From a virus: 32,816 nucleotides of DNA. Below the pieces are notes generated by a model. It did not search any database and had not been told where the DNA came from. It saw nothing but the letters and a program-made list of their open reading frames with translations. Below are positions 10,743 to 27,962 of the stretch, one piece after another; position 1 is the stretch's first letter; every line of letters begins with the position of its first letter. The stretch lies in the IMG/VR virus record IMGVR_UViG_3300022701_000252, positions 1 through 32,816 of that record, one strand, 5' to 3'. Position numbers and translations under genes: made by a program.

Positions 10743-10975
10743 TGAAACAGCACACCCGTATAACAATAAACGAAGCTAAAGCAACAGATCAAGGTATCCT
10801 GATAACCTCATGCTCGGTCATTGACGGTGAATCAGGCGAAGAATTGCGAATCGCTAAACTCACGCCTGAACTGGCCAAACTGCTTACTAAAATTGAAATC
10901 GACACGGATATTTATTTTTTATTGCAGAAACAAAACATAAAACAACTTATTAACACTTTTAATTTAGTATCATGA
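10742..10975 (+). CDS. Hypothetical protein, 77 aa
   Basis: A 77-residue soluble protein with a beta-rich first half (TRITINEAKATDQGILITSC) and a helical end. It starts on the last base of the previous stop codon (TAATG) and overlaps the next gene by four bases, so it is part of the replication operon. The family is not recognised. Confidence 0.55.
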   Translation: MKQHTRITINEAKATDQGILITSCSVIDGESGEELRIAKLTPELAKLLTKIEIDTDIYFLLQKQNIKQLINTFNLVS

Positions 10976-11733
10976 AAAAATTTAAACTAACAACAGAAAC
11001 AAAAATTAATCATTTTGAGGTTACCCTTTTTCGTATCGAAGCAATCACCGATTTTAAATCAATAAAAAAAGGGGGAAAAGGCGGTTGGGTTGAAAAAGAA
11101 GATAATATTTCCGGCGATGCATGGGTTTCCGGCGACGCGGAGGTTTTCGGCGACGCGGAGGTTTCCGGCGGCGCGATGGTTTCCGGTGGCGCGATGGTTT
11201 CCGGCGACGCGAGGGTTTTCGGCGACGCGGAGGTTTCCGGCGACGCGTGGGTTTCCGGCGGCGCGGAGGTTTCCGGCGGCGCGAGGGTTTTCGGCGGCGC
11301 GAGGGTTTTCGGCGGCGCGGAGGTTTCCGGCGATGCATGGGTTTCCGGCGGCGCGAGGGTTTTCGGCGGCGCGAGGGTTTCCGGCGACGCGAGGGTTTCC
11401 GGTGGCGCGAGGGTTTCCGGCGGCGCGAGGGTTTTCGGCGACGCGAGGGTTTCCGGCGATGCATGGGTTTCCGGCGACGCGTGGGTTTCCGGCGACGCGA
11501 GGGTTTCCGGCGATGAATTTAATTATTCACCTCTACAGATTCAAGGAAAAAAACATTTTGTTACTGAATGTAGAAAAGGATTTTTAAAAATAGGGTGTAT
11601 TGAATTATCTGTCGATGAATGGAAAAAACATTTTAAAAAGATAGGAAGAGAAAATAATTATTCCGAAAATGAAATAAAGGAATATGAGCTATATATTAAT
11701 TTAGCAATTGAACTTCAAAAATTAAGATCATGA
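10972..11733 (+). CDS. Hexapeptide-repeat (left-handed beta-helix) phage protein
   Basis: A 253-residue protein in three parts. Residues 1-45 are a cap that matches the usual start of this phage family (LFRIEAITDFKSIKKGGKGGWVEKE). Residues 46-183 are 23 hexads of the type V-S/F-G-D/G-A-x, which should wind as a left-handed parallel beta-helix. Residues 184-253 form the usual C-terminal cap (PLQIQGKKHFVTECRKG...). The function of the family is unknown to me. The repeats vary only at three hexad positions. The gene lies between replication genes and overlaps neighbours by four bases. Confidence 0.75.
   Translation: MKKFKLTTETKINHFEVTLFRIEAITDFKSIKKGGKGGWVEKEDNISGDAWVSGDAEVFGDAEVSGGAMVSGGAMVSGDARVFGDAEVSGDAWVSGGAEVSGGARVFGGARVFGGAEVSGDAWVSGGARVFGGARVSGDARVSGGARVSGGARVFGDARVSGDAWVSGDAWVSGDARVSGDEFNYSPLQIQGKKHFVTECRKGFLKIGCIELSVDEWKKHFKKIGRENNYSENEIKEYELYINLAIELQKLRS
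11107..11520 (+). repeat. 18-bp tandem repeat array, 23 units, inside the hexapeptide gene
   Basis: Each 18-base unit encodes one hexad and reads close to GTTTCCGGCGACGCGAGG. Differences concentrate at TCC/TTC (Ser/Phe), GAC/GGC (Asp/Gly) and the last codon (GAG, AGG, TGG or ATG). It is clearly more G/C-rich than the genes around it. The array lacks stop codons in several frames, which creates false long ORFs on both strands. Confidence 0.9.
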
Positions 11734-12253: not shown

Positions 12254-12628
12254 ATGGCATCAGGTAGATTAAAAGAAGATTTATCGTCACTTCCTGAAAA
12301 CTGGAAGGATATTATCATTGACCTTTATAAAGAAGGAGGTTCAGACGTTGAAGTTAAAGCTTTAATTTATCAATGGCGTGGTAGTTTTTCTAATGACTTA
12401 TGGGACAGGTGGATAGAAGAGGAAATTACTTTTTCGGAAACCATAAAAGATGGTCGGCAGCTTGCAGCCGCTTGGTGGATGCGGAACGGTAGGGAAAACC
12501 TACGGGACAAATACTTCAATTACACCGGTTGGTACATGCAAATGAAAAACCGTTACGGTTGGCGTGACAAAAGCGACATTACCTCAGACGACAAACCGAT
12601 AAACACCATCAATGTCAAATTCAGTTGA
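12254..12628 (+). CDS. Terminase small subunit
   Basis: A 124-residue protein in the expected position just before the large terminase subunit, overlapping it by 17 bases. It is helical, with a first half that could form an HTH-like bundle and the [17 protein letters not shown] segment (about residues 96-112), typical of small terminase subunits. It should recognise the phage DNA for packaging; the hairpins just upstream may be its site. The ATG at 12254 follows the late promoter. Confidence 0.6.
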
Positions 12629-13865
12629 TTTTGATTTCCTGAAAGTTTATGAGCCTGTCTTTAAATCGGATGCAAGGTATATCGATATTTGGGGTGGCCG
12701 TGGCCGTGGTGGTTCTCATTTCGTCACCGATTATTTTCTTTTTAAAATACTTTCTTCACGATATTTTAGGGGCTTTTTTATGAGGTCTGTTTTTCATGAT
12801 ATACGTTTGTCATTATATCAGGACTTCAAAGACAGGGTCGAAGAAAAGAACCTTGAAAGCCTGTTTCATTTCAATGATGTTGAGATGAAGATAAGCTGTA
12901 AGATTAACCAGAATACCATTAATTCAAAGGGCTTCAAGAAATCATCTGGCAACCAAACGGCAAAATTGAAATCTCTGGCCGGGGCTACTGATATAGTTAT
13001 CGAAGAGTGTGAGGAAGTCAACGAAGATGAGTTCAACACGTTAGATGTTTCAATTCGGACAACAAAGAATTCATTGCATGTATTCCGGGTATGGAACCCC
13101 CCGGATCAAAATCACTGGCTTATTAAAAATTATTACAACCTCATACCAGTCCCAGATACTGAAGGTTATTTTACTGCTGTTCCAAAAGGTATTGAAAACC
13201 ATTTATCTATATTTTCAACCTATAAGCAAAATGAAAATAACCTGGACGATACTTTCAAAAAGATTTTAGAGGGGTACAAAAAAACTAATCCTGATTTCTA
13301 TTATTCGAATGTAAAGGGTTATGTTAGCTCAGGTAAGAAAGGAAGGATATTCAAAGAATGGCAGCTTTATGATGAACTGCCCCAAAAAAGATTTTATAGG
13401 ATTTACGGACAGGATTACGGATATTCGCCTGATCCGACCGTTTTGATAGAGGTAAACATCAACATCGAACAGAAAGAAATTTACGCCCGTGAAATTTTCA
13501 GACAGACAGAAATGACTATCGAGGAAATTTACACAGCGAACAAAAAGGCAAATAAAGAAAATCACGAGATTGTTTGTGATAATGTTGAAAAAAGGGAGTT
13601 TTATGCATTAATGAACTACGGACTCAACATGATGAAGGGAAAAGAGGGCAATACTTCCAGAGGCGCTGGGCGTGACCTGGTCAAAAATTTTAAGCTATAT
13701 TTGCATAAAGATTCAAACGGACTGATCAAAGAGTTTGAAAATCATACATGGGCACTGGATGCACAAAAGATGCCGACGGGAAAACCGATTGATGGCTGGG
13801 ACCATGGAATTGACGCTATTGTCTATGCGGTTAGGTATTATGTTAGAAATTATGGTTTAAATTAA
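12612..13865 (+). CDS. Terminase large subunit
   Basis: A 417-residue packaging motor with an ATPase half and a nuclease half. The ATPase has [10 protein letters not shown] (27-36) in the P-loop position, but without the usual GK(S/T) lysine. Walker B with the catalytic acid is [10 protein letters not shown] (127-136). VWNPP (160-164) is the usual N-P coupling motif. The RNase H-like nuclease shows GQDYG (D268), IVCDN (D323) and HGIDAI (D401). The length fits the family. The start at ATG 12612 overlaps the small subunit. Confidence 0.85.
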
Positions 13866-13910: not shown

Positions 13911-14138
13911 ATGGAAGATAAAAAATTATCAGAATTAGTTGCTGAACTTGAAAACAACACAAGTAAAGCTGAACAAGAATTATCAGAATCAAAAGCAACA
14001 TTAATAGTTAATTTTGGAAAGGATCAAAAAAGAAACCCTGTGTTATTGGACGGCACTGAGAAATCATTACTTTCAATGTTTATTCCTATATTGGAATTTT
14101 ATGTAAAAAAAAATAATGATACCCCTGCAAATAAATAA
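13911..14138 (+). CDS. Hypothetical small protein, 75 aa
   Basis: A 75-residue acidic protein: an N-terminal helix rich in Glu and Leu (LSELVAELENNTSKAEQEL), likely a coiled coil, and a short hydrophobic C-terminal part. It overlaps the next gene by 23 bases and lies 45 bases after the terminase. The family is not recognised; position suggests a small tail or packaging factor. Confidence 0.55.
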   Translation: MEDKKLSELVAELENNTSKAEQELSESKATLIVNFGKDQKRNPVLLDGTEKSLLSMFIPILEFYVKKNNDTPANK

Positions 14139-14658
14139 AAAGAAAGTCAAGATCAAATCTATTGATGAACTCACAACTAAAGAGTTCATAGAACTTTCGC
14201 ATATCGAAAATTGCGATATAATTAAGTACATCGCATGGCAGACAGGAGTGACTCTCAATGACGCTTTTTTTGTAAAGTCGCCGAAATCACTTGAAAATCA
14301 GATAGGCATTGCACCTGACATTACCAAACTGCCTACATTGATAGTTGATTACATTGATTACTCAAAACAGATAGAAACGGTTGGCCAGCGTCACCAGGTC
14401 GAAGAAATCAAGTTGCAAGGTTACGAACTGCTCGTACATTGCCTTGCTGTATCACAGGCACAAAGTAATAATATCGATGATATAAATCACCTTAAAGATA
14501 TTTACCTAGAAAAACCGTTCAAAGAAATTCTCCCTGCCGGTTTTTTTTTCTTCGGGATTTACAAAAATGGCAGAAGCAAAGGGCTGATCTTTTTAACCTG
14601 GTTAATGGGATTGATAAGGACGTGGCAATTAAAGAGCAAGCTGGCTCTAAGCGATTAA
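14116..14658 (+). CDS. Probable tail assembly chaperone, zero-frame product
   Basis: A 180-residue protein with a soluble helical region (SIDELTTKEFIELSHIEN) and no membrane segment until the last 30 residues. Its position, between terminase and tail genes, and a T9 run at 14541-14549 suggest a tail assembly chaperone made in two lengths. After the T run the zero frame reads FFGIYKNGRSKG and stops at 14658, while the -1 frame stays open to 14837. The first product would be this one and the second about 240 residues. The family is not recognised by motif, so the assignment is positional. Confidence 0.45.
   Translation: MIPLQINKKKVKIKSIDELTTKEFIELSHIENCDIIKYIAWQTGVTLNDAFFVKSPKSLENQIGIAPDITKLPTLIVDYIDYSKQIETVGQRHQVEEIKLQGYELLVHCLAVSQAQSNNIDDINHLKDIYLEKPFKEILPAGFFFFGIYKNGRSKGLIFLTWLMGLIRTWQLKSKLALSD
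14539..14550 (+). promoter_or_regulatory. Candidate -1 frameshift site (GGTTTTTTTTTC)
   Basis: Nine T in the zero-frame codons GGT TTT TTT TTC allow the tRNA-Phe to slip back one base and keep pairing. The -1 frame is open across the run from before 14520 to 14837. A homopolymer miscall of one T would produce the same picture. No strong downstream stem was worked out. Confidence 0.45.
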
Positions 14659-14837
14659 ATCAGTATTCAAACTATTTTGAAATACAAACACTGTGCAACC
14701 TGTTAAACTGCGATTACGAGACTGTGTTAAAATCAGATGATACTTTCTGCACAAAAATATTGCTTTCTAATTTAGAAAAATCTAAATTTGAATCCATGTA
14801 TTTTGAATTGAAACAAAAACATGGCAATAGAAAGTGA
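14622..14837 (+). CDS. -1 frame extension (tail assembly chaperone, long form) or separate small gene
   Basis: The frame has a GTG start at 14622 but is open far upstream through the T9 run, reading LRDLQKWQKQRADLFNLVNG and then VAIKEQAGSKRLNQYSNY. This looks like ordinary soluble protein, so it is probably joined to the 14116 gene by frameshifting. As an independent gene it would have 71 residues. It contains an acidic helical part (NCDYETVLKSDD) and overlaps the next gene by 17 bases. Confidence 0.45.
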   Translation: MAIKEQAGSKRLNQYSNYFEIQTLCNLLNCDYETVLKSDDTFCTKILLSNLEKSKFESMYFELKQKHGNRK

Positions 14838-15264
14838 TATTCAAACAATTGTAACTGACTTATATCCAGACGCTTCTTATCTGTTAGCTTCTAAATTCAG
14901 GGCTAATATTGATTTATTCGAAATTAACCCCTCAGAACTTCCTTTGATTATCCTTGATAACGAGCTCACAAAAAATAATTCTATTGCTGAAAACGGAAGC
15001 GTTAATAAAGACACAAGGATTATCATATATTGCCTTGACCAGGATTCAGTAGAAAATACGGATGTACAGACAAACGCTATACAACAAGCAATGGAGTTAA
15101 TTGCTGATCGTATCGCTTTGAGGATATTCAGATTTGCGAATGTATTTCCAAATGGGGTACAAAAATACAAAACAACAAAACTCTTTTATATGTTCAATAC
15201 TGATCTGTCAGGTATTGCGCTTGAAATAAATGTAATTGAAAACAACCTTATAAAATGCGAATAA
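14821..15264 (+). CDS. Hypothetical structural protein, possible tail terminator
   Basis: A 147-residue alpha/beta protein with NPSELPLIILDNEL, a beta strand KDTRIIIYCLDQD and a helix AIQQAMELIADRIALRIF, a layout seen in small tail-completion proteins. There is no conserved motif that proves this. It overlaps the previous frame by 17 bases and is followed one base later by the next ATG (15266), so it belongs to the tail operon. Confidence 0.45.
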   Translation: MAIESDIQTIVTDLYPDASYLLASKFRANIDLFEINPSELPLIILDNELTKNNSIAENGSVNKDTRIIIYCLDQDSVENTDVQTNAIQQAMELIADRIALRIFRFANVFPNGVQKYKTTKLFYMFNTDLSGIALEINVIENNLIKCE

Positions 15265-23591: not shown

Positions 23592-24027
23592 TTTAGAAAT
23601 AGAGATACGGGATATGATTGAGCGAAAGGTCAATAACTTTAAGCATGATTTATTTAATATGCTTACTGTGGAGCGTGGCCTTACATCGTCCAGTAAAGCC
23701 GTTGAAAGCTTGACTATAGTAATGAATGAATCTGAAAAATATGTCGGATTAGAAGCTGTCGATTATATATATTACGTTATTCATGGGCGTGGTCCCGGAA
23801 AGTTCCCGCCGCCAAATAATCAAGGTAAATGGCCACTACCTTTCCCGGCAGCAAAAAAGATAGCCGAGGAAGGTAATTTGCAAAAATATAAAACATTTGC
23901 GGATAAATTCGACGAAATGTATAATGAACTTATTATTGATGTTCAAAAAGAAAGCGAGAAAGTTGCCTCTGACTTTATGATCAGAATAACATCCTTCAAA
24001 AATAAACAGATATGGCAGAAACAGTAA
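23581..24027 (+). CDS. HK97 gp10-like tail completion protein (putative)
   Basis: A 148-residue helical protein with the loop VIHGRGPGKFPPPN (about residues 66-79), which I associate with gp10-like tail completion proteins in this phage group, then an amphipathic helix and a basic end. It lies just before the tape measure and overlaps it by 16 bases, where such genes are often found. Assignment is by pattern and position only. Confidence 0.45.
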   Translation: MADSLEIEIRDMIERKVNNFKHDLFNMLTVERGLTSSSKAVESLTIVMNESEKYVGLEAVDYIYYVIHGRGPGKFPPPNNQGKWPLPFPAAKKIAEEGNLQKYKTFADKFDEMYNELIIDVQKESEKVASDFMIRITSFKNKQIWQKQ

Positions 24028-26480
24028 TCAAAATCGAATATGATACCGACGAAGCCCAGAAAGCAATAGACGATCTTGCTCTGAAAATTGATGGGCTCAC
24101 AGAATCCAATAAGGTATACAAAAAAGAAATTAAAGATGCCCGATCTGATTTAAGAAAAACTGACGATCAGCTTGTTAAAGAAGGGAAAACCCGGCAGAAT
24201 TTAATCAATACTATTCAAAAGGGAACAATTGGGCTTTCCCGAAATAAAGATGCTATCTCTGCTGCGCGTAAAGAACGATCCCAAAATATCAGATTAGTAA
24301 ACGGCGAAAAGACAGCTTTTGAAAAGCTTACTGATGCCGTACAAGAGGGAACTGCTGAGTCAAAAAAACATACGGCTGTTCTTGGAAATATGCAGCAAGG
24401 GTTAAGCTCAATTCCCGGTCCAATGGGAGGGATCGTAAACGGATTTATGGGAATGACAAAAGCAGCTTTGGCTTTTATCGCAACTCCAATCGGGGCTATT
24501 ATAGCAGCTATTGTTTTGGGTTTAAAGGCTTTAATGTCATATCTGAAAGGCAGTGAGGAAGGGCAAAATCGATTAAATAAAATAATGATGGTATTTAAAA
24601 CCATCGTGGGCAACCTGAGTGATATTGTACAAAAATTTGGAAAGCAATTATTTGAAGCCTTTACAAAACCAAAGGAGGCGCTGAATGATTTGGTCGATTT
24701 TATAAAAGGCCAGTTTACTAACCGATTGCAAGCATTGGCTAATATGGGGCAGGCAATTGCCAAGATATTTTCAAAGGATTGGAAAGAGGGATTTGCAGAA
24801 TTTGGAAAATCATTCATTGACTTTCAAACCGGGGTTTTAAATACTGTAGATAAATTCCGGGACGGCGTGAAAAAGGTGGGGGAAGAAATGGAGCGAGAAA
24901 GTGCGATAGCGATGAGATTAGCCGATAGACAGGCGGCCCTTGATAAAAAACAAAGGGCATTTCTTGTTGAACGCGAAAAACTGGAAGCCCAGATTGCCGA
25001 TGCCCGTGTAAAAGCTGCTGACAAAGAAAATTATACGGCTGAACAAAGAATCAAGTTTCTGGAGGAGGCCCTTGAAAAAGAAATGCAAATATTAGATACA
25101 GATTTAGCTATAGCTAAAGAAAAATTTGAGATCAAAAAAGCGCAGAATGCCCTTAGTAATTCAACTAAAGAGGATTTAGATGAACAAGCGAGGCTTGAAG
25201 CGGCTCTGTTTAGGATGCAACGGGATAATGCGACAAAGAGAATGGCATTAACTTCCCAGCTCACATCTGCCAGACGGGAGCTGAATAAGGTTGAAGAAAA
25301 AAGCTCTGAGGATGTCGAAAAACAAAGGGAGAAAGAAAGAAAGTTACAGGAAGAGATAGATACCCGCCGTGGCGAATCTATAGCAAAACTCGCTGAACTA
25401 AAACAAAGAGAACTCGAAATTGAAGCTGAAACTTATCAGAAAAAAAGAGAGTTACAAATATCTGCTGCTGACCAGAAGCTTGAAACTGAACTGGAAAAGC
25501 AAGGTATTTTACAGGAAGAAATCGAACTGGCCGAGCAGGAACACAAGATGCGGCTTGCTGAAATTGAGTCAGAATATCAGGAAAATATCAGGATGCAACG
25601 AGAGATGGCTTACAATGATTCGTTTGCATCAATGCAGGAAATTATATCTGCAACAGCTAATTTTGCAAATCAACGTGTCAATATATTGCAGGATGCCTTT
25701 TCCAAGATTGCAACTATAAATTTAAATGAAGTCAAGTCTGCCAAGGATGCCTTTTTGTCAATAGGGGGCGCAGCGCGGGGGTTAACTAATCTGATTGTCT
25801 CCGGGAACCAGGTTCAGCTTGAAGATTTAGAAGCAAAAAAACAGGCAGAATTAGAACTTGCAGGTGATAACGCTGTAGTTCGCGAGAATATAGAGAAAAA
25901 GTATGTTGCAAAATTAGCGGCCGTAAAAAGAGCTCAGGCAAAGGAGGAAAAAAGAAAGGCTATTGTTGATGCTATAATCGCAACGGCTCTAGGTGTTACA
26001 AAAGCCCTTGGCGCTCCTTTCCCCCTTAATACCGTGTTGCCAATTACTATAGGGGCTGCCGGTGCTGTGCAGGTAGCTACTATAAAGAGACAACAAGAAC
26101 CGGAATTTAGTTCAGATAAGATTTTTAAAAAAGGAGGCGGCATTGTAGACGGGGCAAGTCATTCAGGGGGTGGAGTTAACGTGTTTGGTGATAATGGACA
26201 GTACTTCGGGAATGTCGAAGGCGGGGAGGCTATGTTTGTAATGAAAAAAGATGCCACGGCGGAAATAACAGCAATGAGCCGAATTAATGAGAGCTATGGC
26301 GGAAGGTCTTTCAATTCAAACCCCGTCAAACATGCCCAAGAAGGAGGGCAGTTATCGGGCAATGATATTGCTTCAATGGTTGACCGTGAAATAAGCCGGA
26401 CACCTATTTTTGTAAAAGTCGGGGATATTGAAACGGGATTGACCGAAACGGAAAATGTAAAAAATGCGGGGGTAGTTTGA
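24012..26480 (+). CDS. Tail tape measure protein
   Basis: An 822-residue protein with coiled coil at 10-95, a hydrophobic segment at about 150-178 (FIATPIGAIIAAIVLGLKAL), long charged coiled coils (285-545, rich in Glu, Lys and Arg) and a second hydrophobic stretch near 655-695. The C-terminus is Gly-rich (FKKGGGIVDGASHSGGGVNV). This combination is typical of tape measure proteins, which set tail length. At about 0.15 nm per residue it predicts a tail near 120 nm, an estimate only. No sheath gene is seen nearby, which fits a siphovirus. Confidence 0.75.
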   Translation: MAETVIKIEYDTDEAQKAIDDLALKIDGLTESNKVYKKEIKDARSDLRKTDDQLVKEGKTRQNLINTIQKGTIGLSRNKDAISAARKERSQNIRLVNGEKTAFEKLTDAVQEGTAESKKHTAVLGNMQQGLSSIPGPMGGIVNGFMGMTKAALAFIATPIGAIIAAIVLGLKALMSYLKGSEEGQNRLNKIMMVFKTIVGNLSDIVQKFGKQLFEAFTKPKEALNDLVDFIKGQFTNRLQALANMGQAIAKIFSKDWKEGFAEFGKSFIDFQTGVLNTVDKFRDGVKKVGEEMERESAIAMRLADRQAALDKKQRAFLVEREKLEAQIADARVKAADKENYTAEQRIKFLEEALEKEMQILDTDLAIAKEKFEIKKAQNALSNSTKEDLDEQARLEAALFRMQRDNATKRMALTSQLTSARRELNKVEEKSSEDVEKQREKERKLQEEIDTRRGESIAKLAELKQRELEIEAETYQKKRELQISAADQKLETELEKQGILQEEIELAEQEHKMRLAEIESEYQENIRMQREMAYNDSFASMQEIISATANFANQRVNILQDAFSKIATINLNEVKSAKDAFLSIGGAARGLTNLIVSGNQVQLEDLEAKKQAELELAGDNAVVRENIEKKYVAKLAAVKRAQAKEEKRKAIVDAIIATALGVTKALGAPFPLNTVLPITIGAAGAVQVATIKRQQEPEFSSDKIFKKGGGIVDGASHSGGGVNVFGDNGQYFGNVEGGEAMFVMKKDATAEITAMSRINESYGGRSFNSNPVKHAQEGGQLSGNDIASMVDREISRTPIFVKVGDIETGLTETENVKNAGVV

Positions 26481-26697: not shown

Positions 26698-26730
26698 GCC
26701 CCTTCATTAATTTGAAGGGGCTTTTTTTTT
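26698..26730 (+). terminator. Strong rho-independent terminator
   Basis: GCCCCTTCA (26698-26706) pairs perfectly with TGAAGGGGC (26713-26721) around a six-base loop and is followed by nine T. It separates tail and head modules, so the head genes need their own promoter or read-through. Confidence 0.85.
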
Positions 26731-26744
26731 GCCTAAAATTGTAT

Positions 26745-27962
26745 ATGCCAACACCGAAAAGCGGCGAAAAGAAAGATCAGTTCATACAGCGTTGTATGGG
26801 TGATCAGGAAGCTAATAACAGCTTCCCTGATGAAAAACAAAGATATGCTTTTTGTGTAGCTCAATTTGACAAAAAAATGAAAACGCTGATTTTAGAGCAT
26901 GACGTAGTTGACGAATCGACAAGGGCAGAATTAGAAGCCAAAGGCGAAAAATGTATATCCCTTGAACATGTCCGTAATTTTCTTAATTCAGCGAATGGCG
27001 AAGATATCAAGCTGGATATATCAACCCTTGGTGGAGACCTGGCAACTGCAATTACAATCCATGACCTTATAGGATCATATCCCGGGAAAGTAACCGGGGA
27101 AGTGACTGGTCTTCTTGCAAGCGCCGGAACGGTTATATTGCAAGCTTGTGACGAAAGGATAATGGACAGTAACAAATTATTCCTTGTTCATAATGGTTGG
27201 AAATCAGTAACAGGCAATATTTACGACTTTCAAAAAGCTGTGCAAGATATGTCCAAAACGGACGCTATCATGGTCAATATTTATAAGAAACGCACAGGGC
27301 TTGATAATGAAAAGATCATCGACCTGATGAAAACAAGTGAATGGTTGACCGCCGGGGAGGCGTTGGAGTATGGGTTTATCGATAAAATTACAGAAAGCAC
27401 TTTAAAAGTAGCCGCAAGCGCAATTATTACAGGGGCGCAAGGCAAAATAAATAATCAATTATTAATCAAACTAAAAGAAAAAATGGGAATTTTTAGTAAA
27501 AAACCAGAGGAAAAAAATTACCCTTTGGCTTTAGCTGATGGCAACATAGCGGTTATAAACGCCGAGAAGCCGGCTAAAGATGTTAAGATTGCCGCCCTTG
27601 GGGAGTTCGCTTTCGCAGGCGGCGAGTACGAACTTAAAGATGGCACGAAAATCAACGTTGTTGATAACGGGGATGGGACTTTTACCATTACAGAAGTAAT
27701 GGACAAACCTGAAATGGAGGTGAATTCCGAGGAAATGATCAACACGGTTGCGACCATGATCACCAACTCCGAGGCCAAAATCGAGGCAATGATCGAAGCA
27801 AAACTGAAGCCTTTGGCTGCAATTGCTTCCAAGCATGTGCCTGAAAAACCATCCGGACCATCTAATCCAGGCCAGTCAAGCGCGAACGACATACAAACGA
27901 AAGTCGAGGCGAAAGTGAAGGAATTGAAGGAAGCGGCCGCAAAAAAAAGGAAAGGAGTGTAA
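26745..27962 (+). CDS. ClpP-type head maturation protease with scaffold-like C-terminus
   Basis: A 405-residue fusion. Residues 1-43 (MPTPKSGEKKDQFIQRCMGD, then FPDEKQRYAFC) are a module seen before phage head proteases. Residues 46-225 are a ClpP-like serine protease: STLGGDLATA (oxyanion region), LLASAGTVI with Ser126, and FLVHNG with His149. Residues about 305-405 are helical and charged (INTVATMITNSEAKIEAMIE), like a scaffold that is cut away. It processes the capsid during assembly. I start at ATG 26745, since the TTG at 26712 lies within the terminator. Confidence 0.75.
   Translation: MPTPKSGEKKDQFIQRCMGDQEANNSFPDEKQRYAFCVAQFDKKMKTLILEHDVVDESTRAELEAKGEKCISLEHVRNFLNSANGEDIKLDISTLGGDLATAITIHDLIGSYPGKVTGEVTGLLASAGTVILQACDERIMDSNKLFLVHNGWKSVTGNIYDFQKAVQDMSKTDAIMVNIYKKRTGLDNEKIIDLMKTSEWLTAGEALEYGFIDKITESTLKVAASAIITGAQGKINNQLLIKLKEKMGIFSKKPEEKNYPLALADGNIAVINAEKPAKDVKIAALGEFAFAGGEYELKDGTKINVVDNGDGTFTITEVMDKPEMEVNSEEMINTVATMITNSEAKIEAMIEAKLKPLAAIASKHVPEKPSGPSNPGQSSANDIQTKVEAKVKELKEAAAKKRKGV

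Follow-up and report, generated by a model that had tools for sequence, protein, structure and literature searches.

A conserved run of nine T in a phage tail-module gene and its probable short and long tail-assembly-chaperone-like products

The tail assembly chaperones of the lambda gpG/gpGT type are protein pairs (Xu, Hendrix and Duda 2004, as cited in PMC10885494; described in PMC5009743), and for phage T4 the tail chaperone genes gp26/gp51 were proposed to work without frameshifting (Vladimirov 2022, going by the title cited in PMC10885494). A change of frame may also arise during transcription. In bacteria, slippage of the RNA polymerase is highly efficient on runs of nine A or T, and transcriptional slippage occurs at 9 Ts in Thermus thermophilus dnaX as well as in Shigella type III secretion genes (reviewed in PMC5009743). 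For the E. coli polymerase, the tendency to slip is greater on poly(T) (PMC6260861). Here, a previously unnamed phage gene gains a defined product pair and a likely role in tail assembly. The best explanation of the locus, which we regard as likely on the whole, is that one gene gives two proteins through a conserved slip on nine T (T9), and that these are tail-assembly-chaperone-like.

Two reading frames at the nine-T run

The window, i.e., the whole stretch of 32,816 nucleotides that was analysed, is a 32.8-kb virus record whose genes include a terminase, a tape measure, a ClpP-type head protease, a capsid and a portal. The features used below are as follows.

12612–13865, plus strand: terminase large subunit, the upstream neighbour (Pfam Terminase_3, Terminase_3C)
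13911–14138: small ORF between the terminase and the slip gene, with neither a family match nor a counterpart found in the relatives
14116–14658, plus strand: zero-frame ORF, short product of 180 aa, homologous to the zero frames of the relatives
14541–14549, plus strand: T9 slip run, codons GGT TTT TTT TTC, with the heptamer T_TTT_TTT at 14541–14547
14547–14837, plus strand: -1 frame extension, 96 codons and TGA
14116–14837, plus strand: long (fused) product of 240 aa, computed with a slip on T_TTT_TTT
14821–15264, plus strand: predicted tail terminator of 147 aa (AlphaFold model against the PDB)
24012–26480, plus strand: tape measure protein (PHROG tail length tape measure protein, phrog_991)

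Read directly from the window sequence on the plus strand, the run (14541–14549) is preceded by GG at 14539–14540 and followed by C at 14550. The short product consists of an N-terminal domain and a 35-aa, poorly conserved tail past the slip site. The -1 frame contains no stop between 14496 and 14834 and is closed by the TGA at 14835–14837, so that in the window it overlaps the next gene (ATG 14821) by 17 bp; among the relatives this overlap is often ATGA. The run, the zero-frame stop at 14658, the -1 frame reaching 14837 and a fusion of about 240 residues had all been given in a sequence-only reading of this DNA, and every number held on recheck.

A second T9 run is present in the window at 26722–26730, close to the 5' end of the head protease ORF, which starts with TTG; the run lies upstream of an in-frame ATG at 26745 and hence is probably in the head protease leader. 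Elsewhere in the window, the ORF at 10972–11733 contains many hexapeptide-like repeats (GDARVSGGAEVSG...), and the segment 17352–18188 resembles, as judged by eye, a BspA-type leucine-rich repeat protein.

Conservation of the slip site and of the downstream frame

Searches of viral contigs with the zero frame, the terminase or the capsid as single-protein queries returned no relatives. Related contigs were reached through a terminase pair alignment and portal searches, and two alignment scans completed the set, which comprises 17 distinct IMG/VR members from separate metagenomes, the window included. With the fused protein as query, every gene-bearing record matched in two frames that met near residue 140 to 147. 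A tblastn search of 50,697 named phages with the fusion and with the L059 protein (see below) gave no match, and a homologue sought in 395 and 393 genomes, from the phylum and the order, respectively, of a Bacteroidales MAG, was not found.

Exactly nine T at the same codon, with the -1 frame coding for the downstream protein, were observed in 16 of the 17 distinct members. The remaining one, L059, has ten T (T10), and a single continuous ORF of 235 aa codes for its fusion; it groups with the window on the tree. Two types of flanks were seen, GG-T9-C, and GC-T9-G in a deeper clade (L072, L081, L083). A pattern scan of IMG/VR tolerating T7 to T11 recovered GG-flanked family members with T9 only, plus the single T10 of L059; its T7 matches fell in the 5' leaders of another, unrelated gene, and two more matches had no relation to the family either. 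By codon parsimony on the protein tree, the four slip codons showed zero third-position changes compared with a mean of 6.4 elsewhere, and outside the slip codons only 5 of 228 third positions were unchanged in the same analysis. GGT accounts for only 31% of the Gly codons, and both TTT and TTC are used freely by the relatives for a conserved Phe-Phe pair near residue 51. In approximately 180 kb of ORFs of the related phages, 17 of the 21 sense A/T runs of at least nine were the slip site itself. The conservation of T9 in 16 of the 17 distinct members thus indicates that the frame change is real and programmed. This agrees with the sequence-only reading, which had proposed a programmed frame change and had turned to homologues for two frames with the same slip site: 16 of the 17 members keep them, across divergent phages, which strongly supports the proposal. 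The opposite outcomes it had named, ten T in accurate reads or homologues with a single frame and no slip site, turned up only in one relative, the T10 member.

One of the five unchanged third positions belongs to the Leu codon L216 of the fusion (window approximately 14760–14762), which is TTG in all 17 members. It is possibly an embedded signal, or possibly due to chance.

Past the slip site, the -1 frame showed a mean pairwise amino acid identity of 53% among homologues, and its most variable sites were its own third codon positions. The tail of the zero frame after the slip had only 31% identity between relatives, and the zero-frame stop lies 118 nt past the start of the run in most members, not in all. 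This pattern indicates that the -1 frame is under purifying selection, while the tail of the short product looks tolerated rather than conserved. Together with the overlap with the next gene, the identity and the codon-position bias of the -1 frame imply that it is translated in continuation of the zero frame. We conclude that a programmed, functional recoding of this tail-module gene is very highly probable.

Three other explanations of the two frames were weighed. Homopolymer runs are prone to error, and a fault of sequencing or assembly, or else a broken gene, was considered first; yet the run has an identical length in contigs of many separate metagenomes and the -1 frame is conserved and under purifying selection, which makes the probability of this explanation practically negligible. 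The run could instead vary in length at the DNA level, by phase variation or replication slippage, so that T9 and T10 genomes would be mixed in the population, and the T10 and continuous ORF of L059 speak for this. A switching locus should, however, show more T10, T8 and T11 than the one exception to T9 in 17 members, and no other lengths appeared in the scan tolerant of run length; we regard such variation as very unlikely. Lastly, a 71-aa ORF with a GTG start at 14622 is present in the -1 frame and could be a separate gene made without any fusion. This appears extremely improbable, as conservation of the -1 frame starts at the slip site whereas the GTG corresponds to residue 170 of the fusion, and the invariant W152, Q153, R156 and F160 all precede it. 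Moreover, both halves form one protein in L059, and the slip site falls within a single predicted helix (133–163). Sequencing error, a broken gene and an internal start were all rejected on this evidence.

Polymerase or ribosome

The agent of the frame change would be the RNA polymerase, adding one T to the mRNA by slippage, for which we see about an even chance, or the ribosome, slipping by -1 on T_TTT_TTT, which is rated somewhat lower, or both. The run has the length at which programmed transcriptional slippage is expected, approximately nine or more A/T (T9 in 16 of 17 members and T10 in 1 of 17). It also contains the slippery heptamer X_XXY_YYZ of programmed -1 ribosomal frameshifting in the form T_TTT_TTT, perfect and in phase in all T9 members. 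A purely ribosomal mechanism, as in lambda-type tail chaperone genes, is thus quite possible, and phage tail chaperone genes are known to use ribosomal frameshifting (PMC5009743). However, seven T's suffice for it and yet nine are kept in 16 of the 17 members, the third Phe codon retaining its wobble base as well; this last T is weak evidence against the ribosome, because TTT accounts for 81% of the Phe codons. In addition, frame shifts occur less readily in E. coli on U_UUU_UUU than on A_AAA_AAG (PMC5009743).

The region 3' of the run also bears on this question. In programmed -1 ribosomal frameshifting a downstream stimulatory RNA structure is common, not obligatory. A stem-loop signal was not found downstream of the slip site: by pseudoknot-free folding, single folds showed no structure (z-scores of -1.0 to +1.2), nor did the consensus fold of the alignment (-0.05 kcal/mol). 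Since this structure was not found and T9 is an efficient slip site for the polymerase, transcriptional slippage is no less likely than -1 frameshifting by the ribosome. Of the -1 frameshift put forward in the sequence-only reading, the frame change therefore stands, and the ribosome as its agent is less secure, as polymerase slippage on T9 gives the same protein.

It is possible, and we put it forward tentatively, that the polymerase slipping on T9, and not the ribosome, determines how much short relative to long tail-assembly protein the phages of this group make. Under polymerase slippage the T10 allele would still yield both products. If the polymerase slips, the locus might represent a transcriptional version of the tail-chaperone frameshift, a suggestion of the same tentative order. 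Since lambda-like phages make a product pair of this kind by ribosomal frameshifting, the gene offers a natural case for telling transcriptional from ribosomal slippage apart. Gene callers will truncate the slip gene in every T9 genome, so the annotations of the group at this locus are likely wrong.

The tail module and the described systems

The AlphaFold model of the gene at 14821 matched in the PDB the E217 neck protein, the lambda tail cap and gpU, the Mu terminator and T4 gp15 (E of 0.002 to 0.04), and a tail terminator fold is predicted for it on this basis. A homologue of this gene is located directly 3' of the slip gene in every relative. The order tape measure, slip gene, terminator was found in three relatives (L072, L081 and L083), and the order terminase, slip gene, terminator in most others. 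The slip gene thus belongs to the tail module, by its neighbour with the terminator fold and by the tape-measure gene adjoining it in these three relatives. Genes of the gpG/gpGT type sit after the major tail protein gene and directly upstream of the tape-measure gene, a position that the slip gene does not share.

In the L072 record, the head genes come after the terminase and the pair of slip gene and terminator after the tape measure; the window instead has this pair after the terminase and its head genes after the tape measure. The terminase large subunit of the window (12612–13865) has only 25–31% identity to that of relatives (L060–L071) whose other tail and head genes are 40–70% identical, and higher identity to those of L059 (55%) and of the L072 record (49%). 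From these values, the terminase gene looks to have been exchanged between lineages.

The AlphaFold model of the single-ORF protein of L059 had a pLDDT of 81. In the long-form model the confidence was high for the N-terminal domain and lower for the C-terminal part, which is helical; the slip site lies inside one long predicted helix. A PDB fold search with the long form gave no match. Sequence searches of Pfam, NCBIfam and the PDB did not assign the gene to any of the known tail chaperone families, which is still compatible with a distant relation; across Pfam, NCBIfam, PHROGs and the PDB, no membership of a known chaperone family was seen. Foldseek returned several unnamed viral proteins of 210–260 aa at probability 1.0 with TM-scores of only 0.4 to 0.5; matches of much lower probability were Nonlabens P12024S I6R9M9 (175 aa) and R9ZZW4 (176 aa). 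From length alone, we infer that I6R9M9 is P12024S_38, directly after its terminase, and that R9ZZW4 is Cellulophaga phi46:1 gp16, also directly after the terminase. Profile comparison of the slip gene with T4 gp26/gp51, P12024S_38 and phi46:1 gp16 detected no sequence similarity. A single frame is present in the Cbastvirus phages, Nonlabens P12024S and Cellulophaga phi46:1, whose candidate genes are distant and similar in fold or position; together with the close T10 relative, this indicates that the two-product state is not universal.

We propose the following model. Most expression would stay in the zero frame and give the short protein of approximately 180 aa, i.e., the N-terminal domain, and a fraction would shift at T9 to the -1 frame and give the long form of 240 aa, to which a second, helical domain is added; both products would be made in vivo, in some such ratio. 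The slip gene would most likely act like the lambda gpG/gpGT pair, many short and few long copies binding the tape measure protein and recruiting tail tube subunits. This chaperone-like role is our best guess and a likely one. The sequence-only reading had named the gene a candidate tail assembly chaperone; the terminator neighbour, the tape measure adjoining in three relatives and the short and long forms favour it, and the lack of a link to a Pfam, NCBIfam or PDB family and a place not directly upstream of the tape-measure gene weigh against it. The gene might instead be recoded as described and serve as another tail-module factor, e.g., a tail completion or neck assembly protein. In favour of this, its partner in every relative is the predicted tail terminator gene, the tape-measure gene usually lying elsewhere, and no chaperone family match was obtained; but short and long forms with a common N-terminal domain are the hallmark of tail chaperones (PMC5009743), and in three relatives the slip gene directly follows the tape-measure gene. 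We regard this other role as the less likely one.

Among described systems, T4 gp26/gp51 possibly have a similar role, and profile similarity to the slip gene was not found. A weak profile match running across the junction was obtained with phrog_10445 (E 1.7e-4), a 296-position family of unknown function. The Cbastvirus proteins UXQ88761.1 of Tenacibaculum phage Larrie and gp016 of Cellulophaga phiST are of similar length and their profile alignment also crosses the junction, but both are single-frame and the similarity is weak (hhalign E 9e-4, probability 24%); phiST gp016 is followed by a gene of approximately 149 aa and then by structural genes.

The frame change resembles the one known from the tail chaperone genes of many phages. 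As in lambda gpG/gpGT, the slip gene is a tail-module gene with a homopolymer-rich slip site, and two overlapping frames are joined by a conserved slip site so that a -1 extended long form and a short form have a common N-terminal part. Unlike in lambda, no sequence match was found, the nine-T site is without RNA structure, and the gene lies directly before the tail terminator, and after the tape measure in three relatives, instead of directly upstream of the tape measure. With Thermus dnaX and the Shigella type III secretion genes the differences are that a phage tail gene is concerned here and that slippage is proposed from the sequence; the slip gene resembles them in its nine identical A/T bases, in the two protein lengths per gene and in that RNA structure is not needed.
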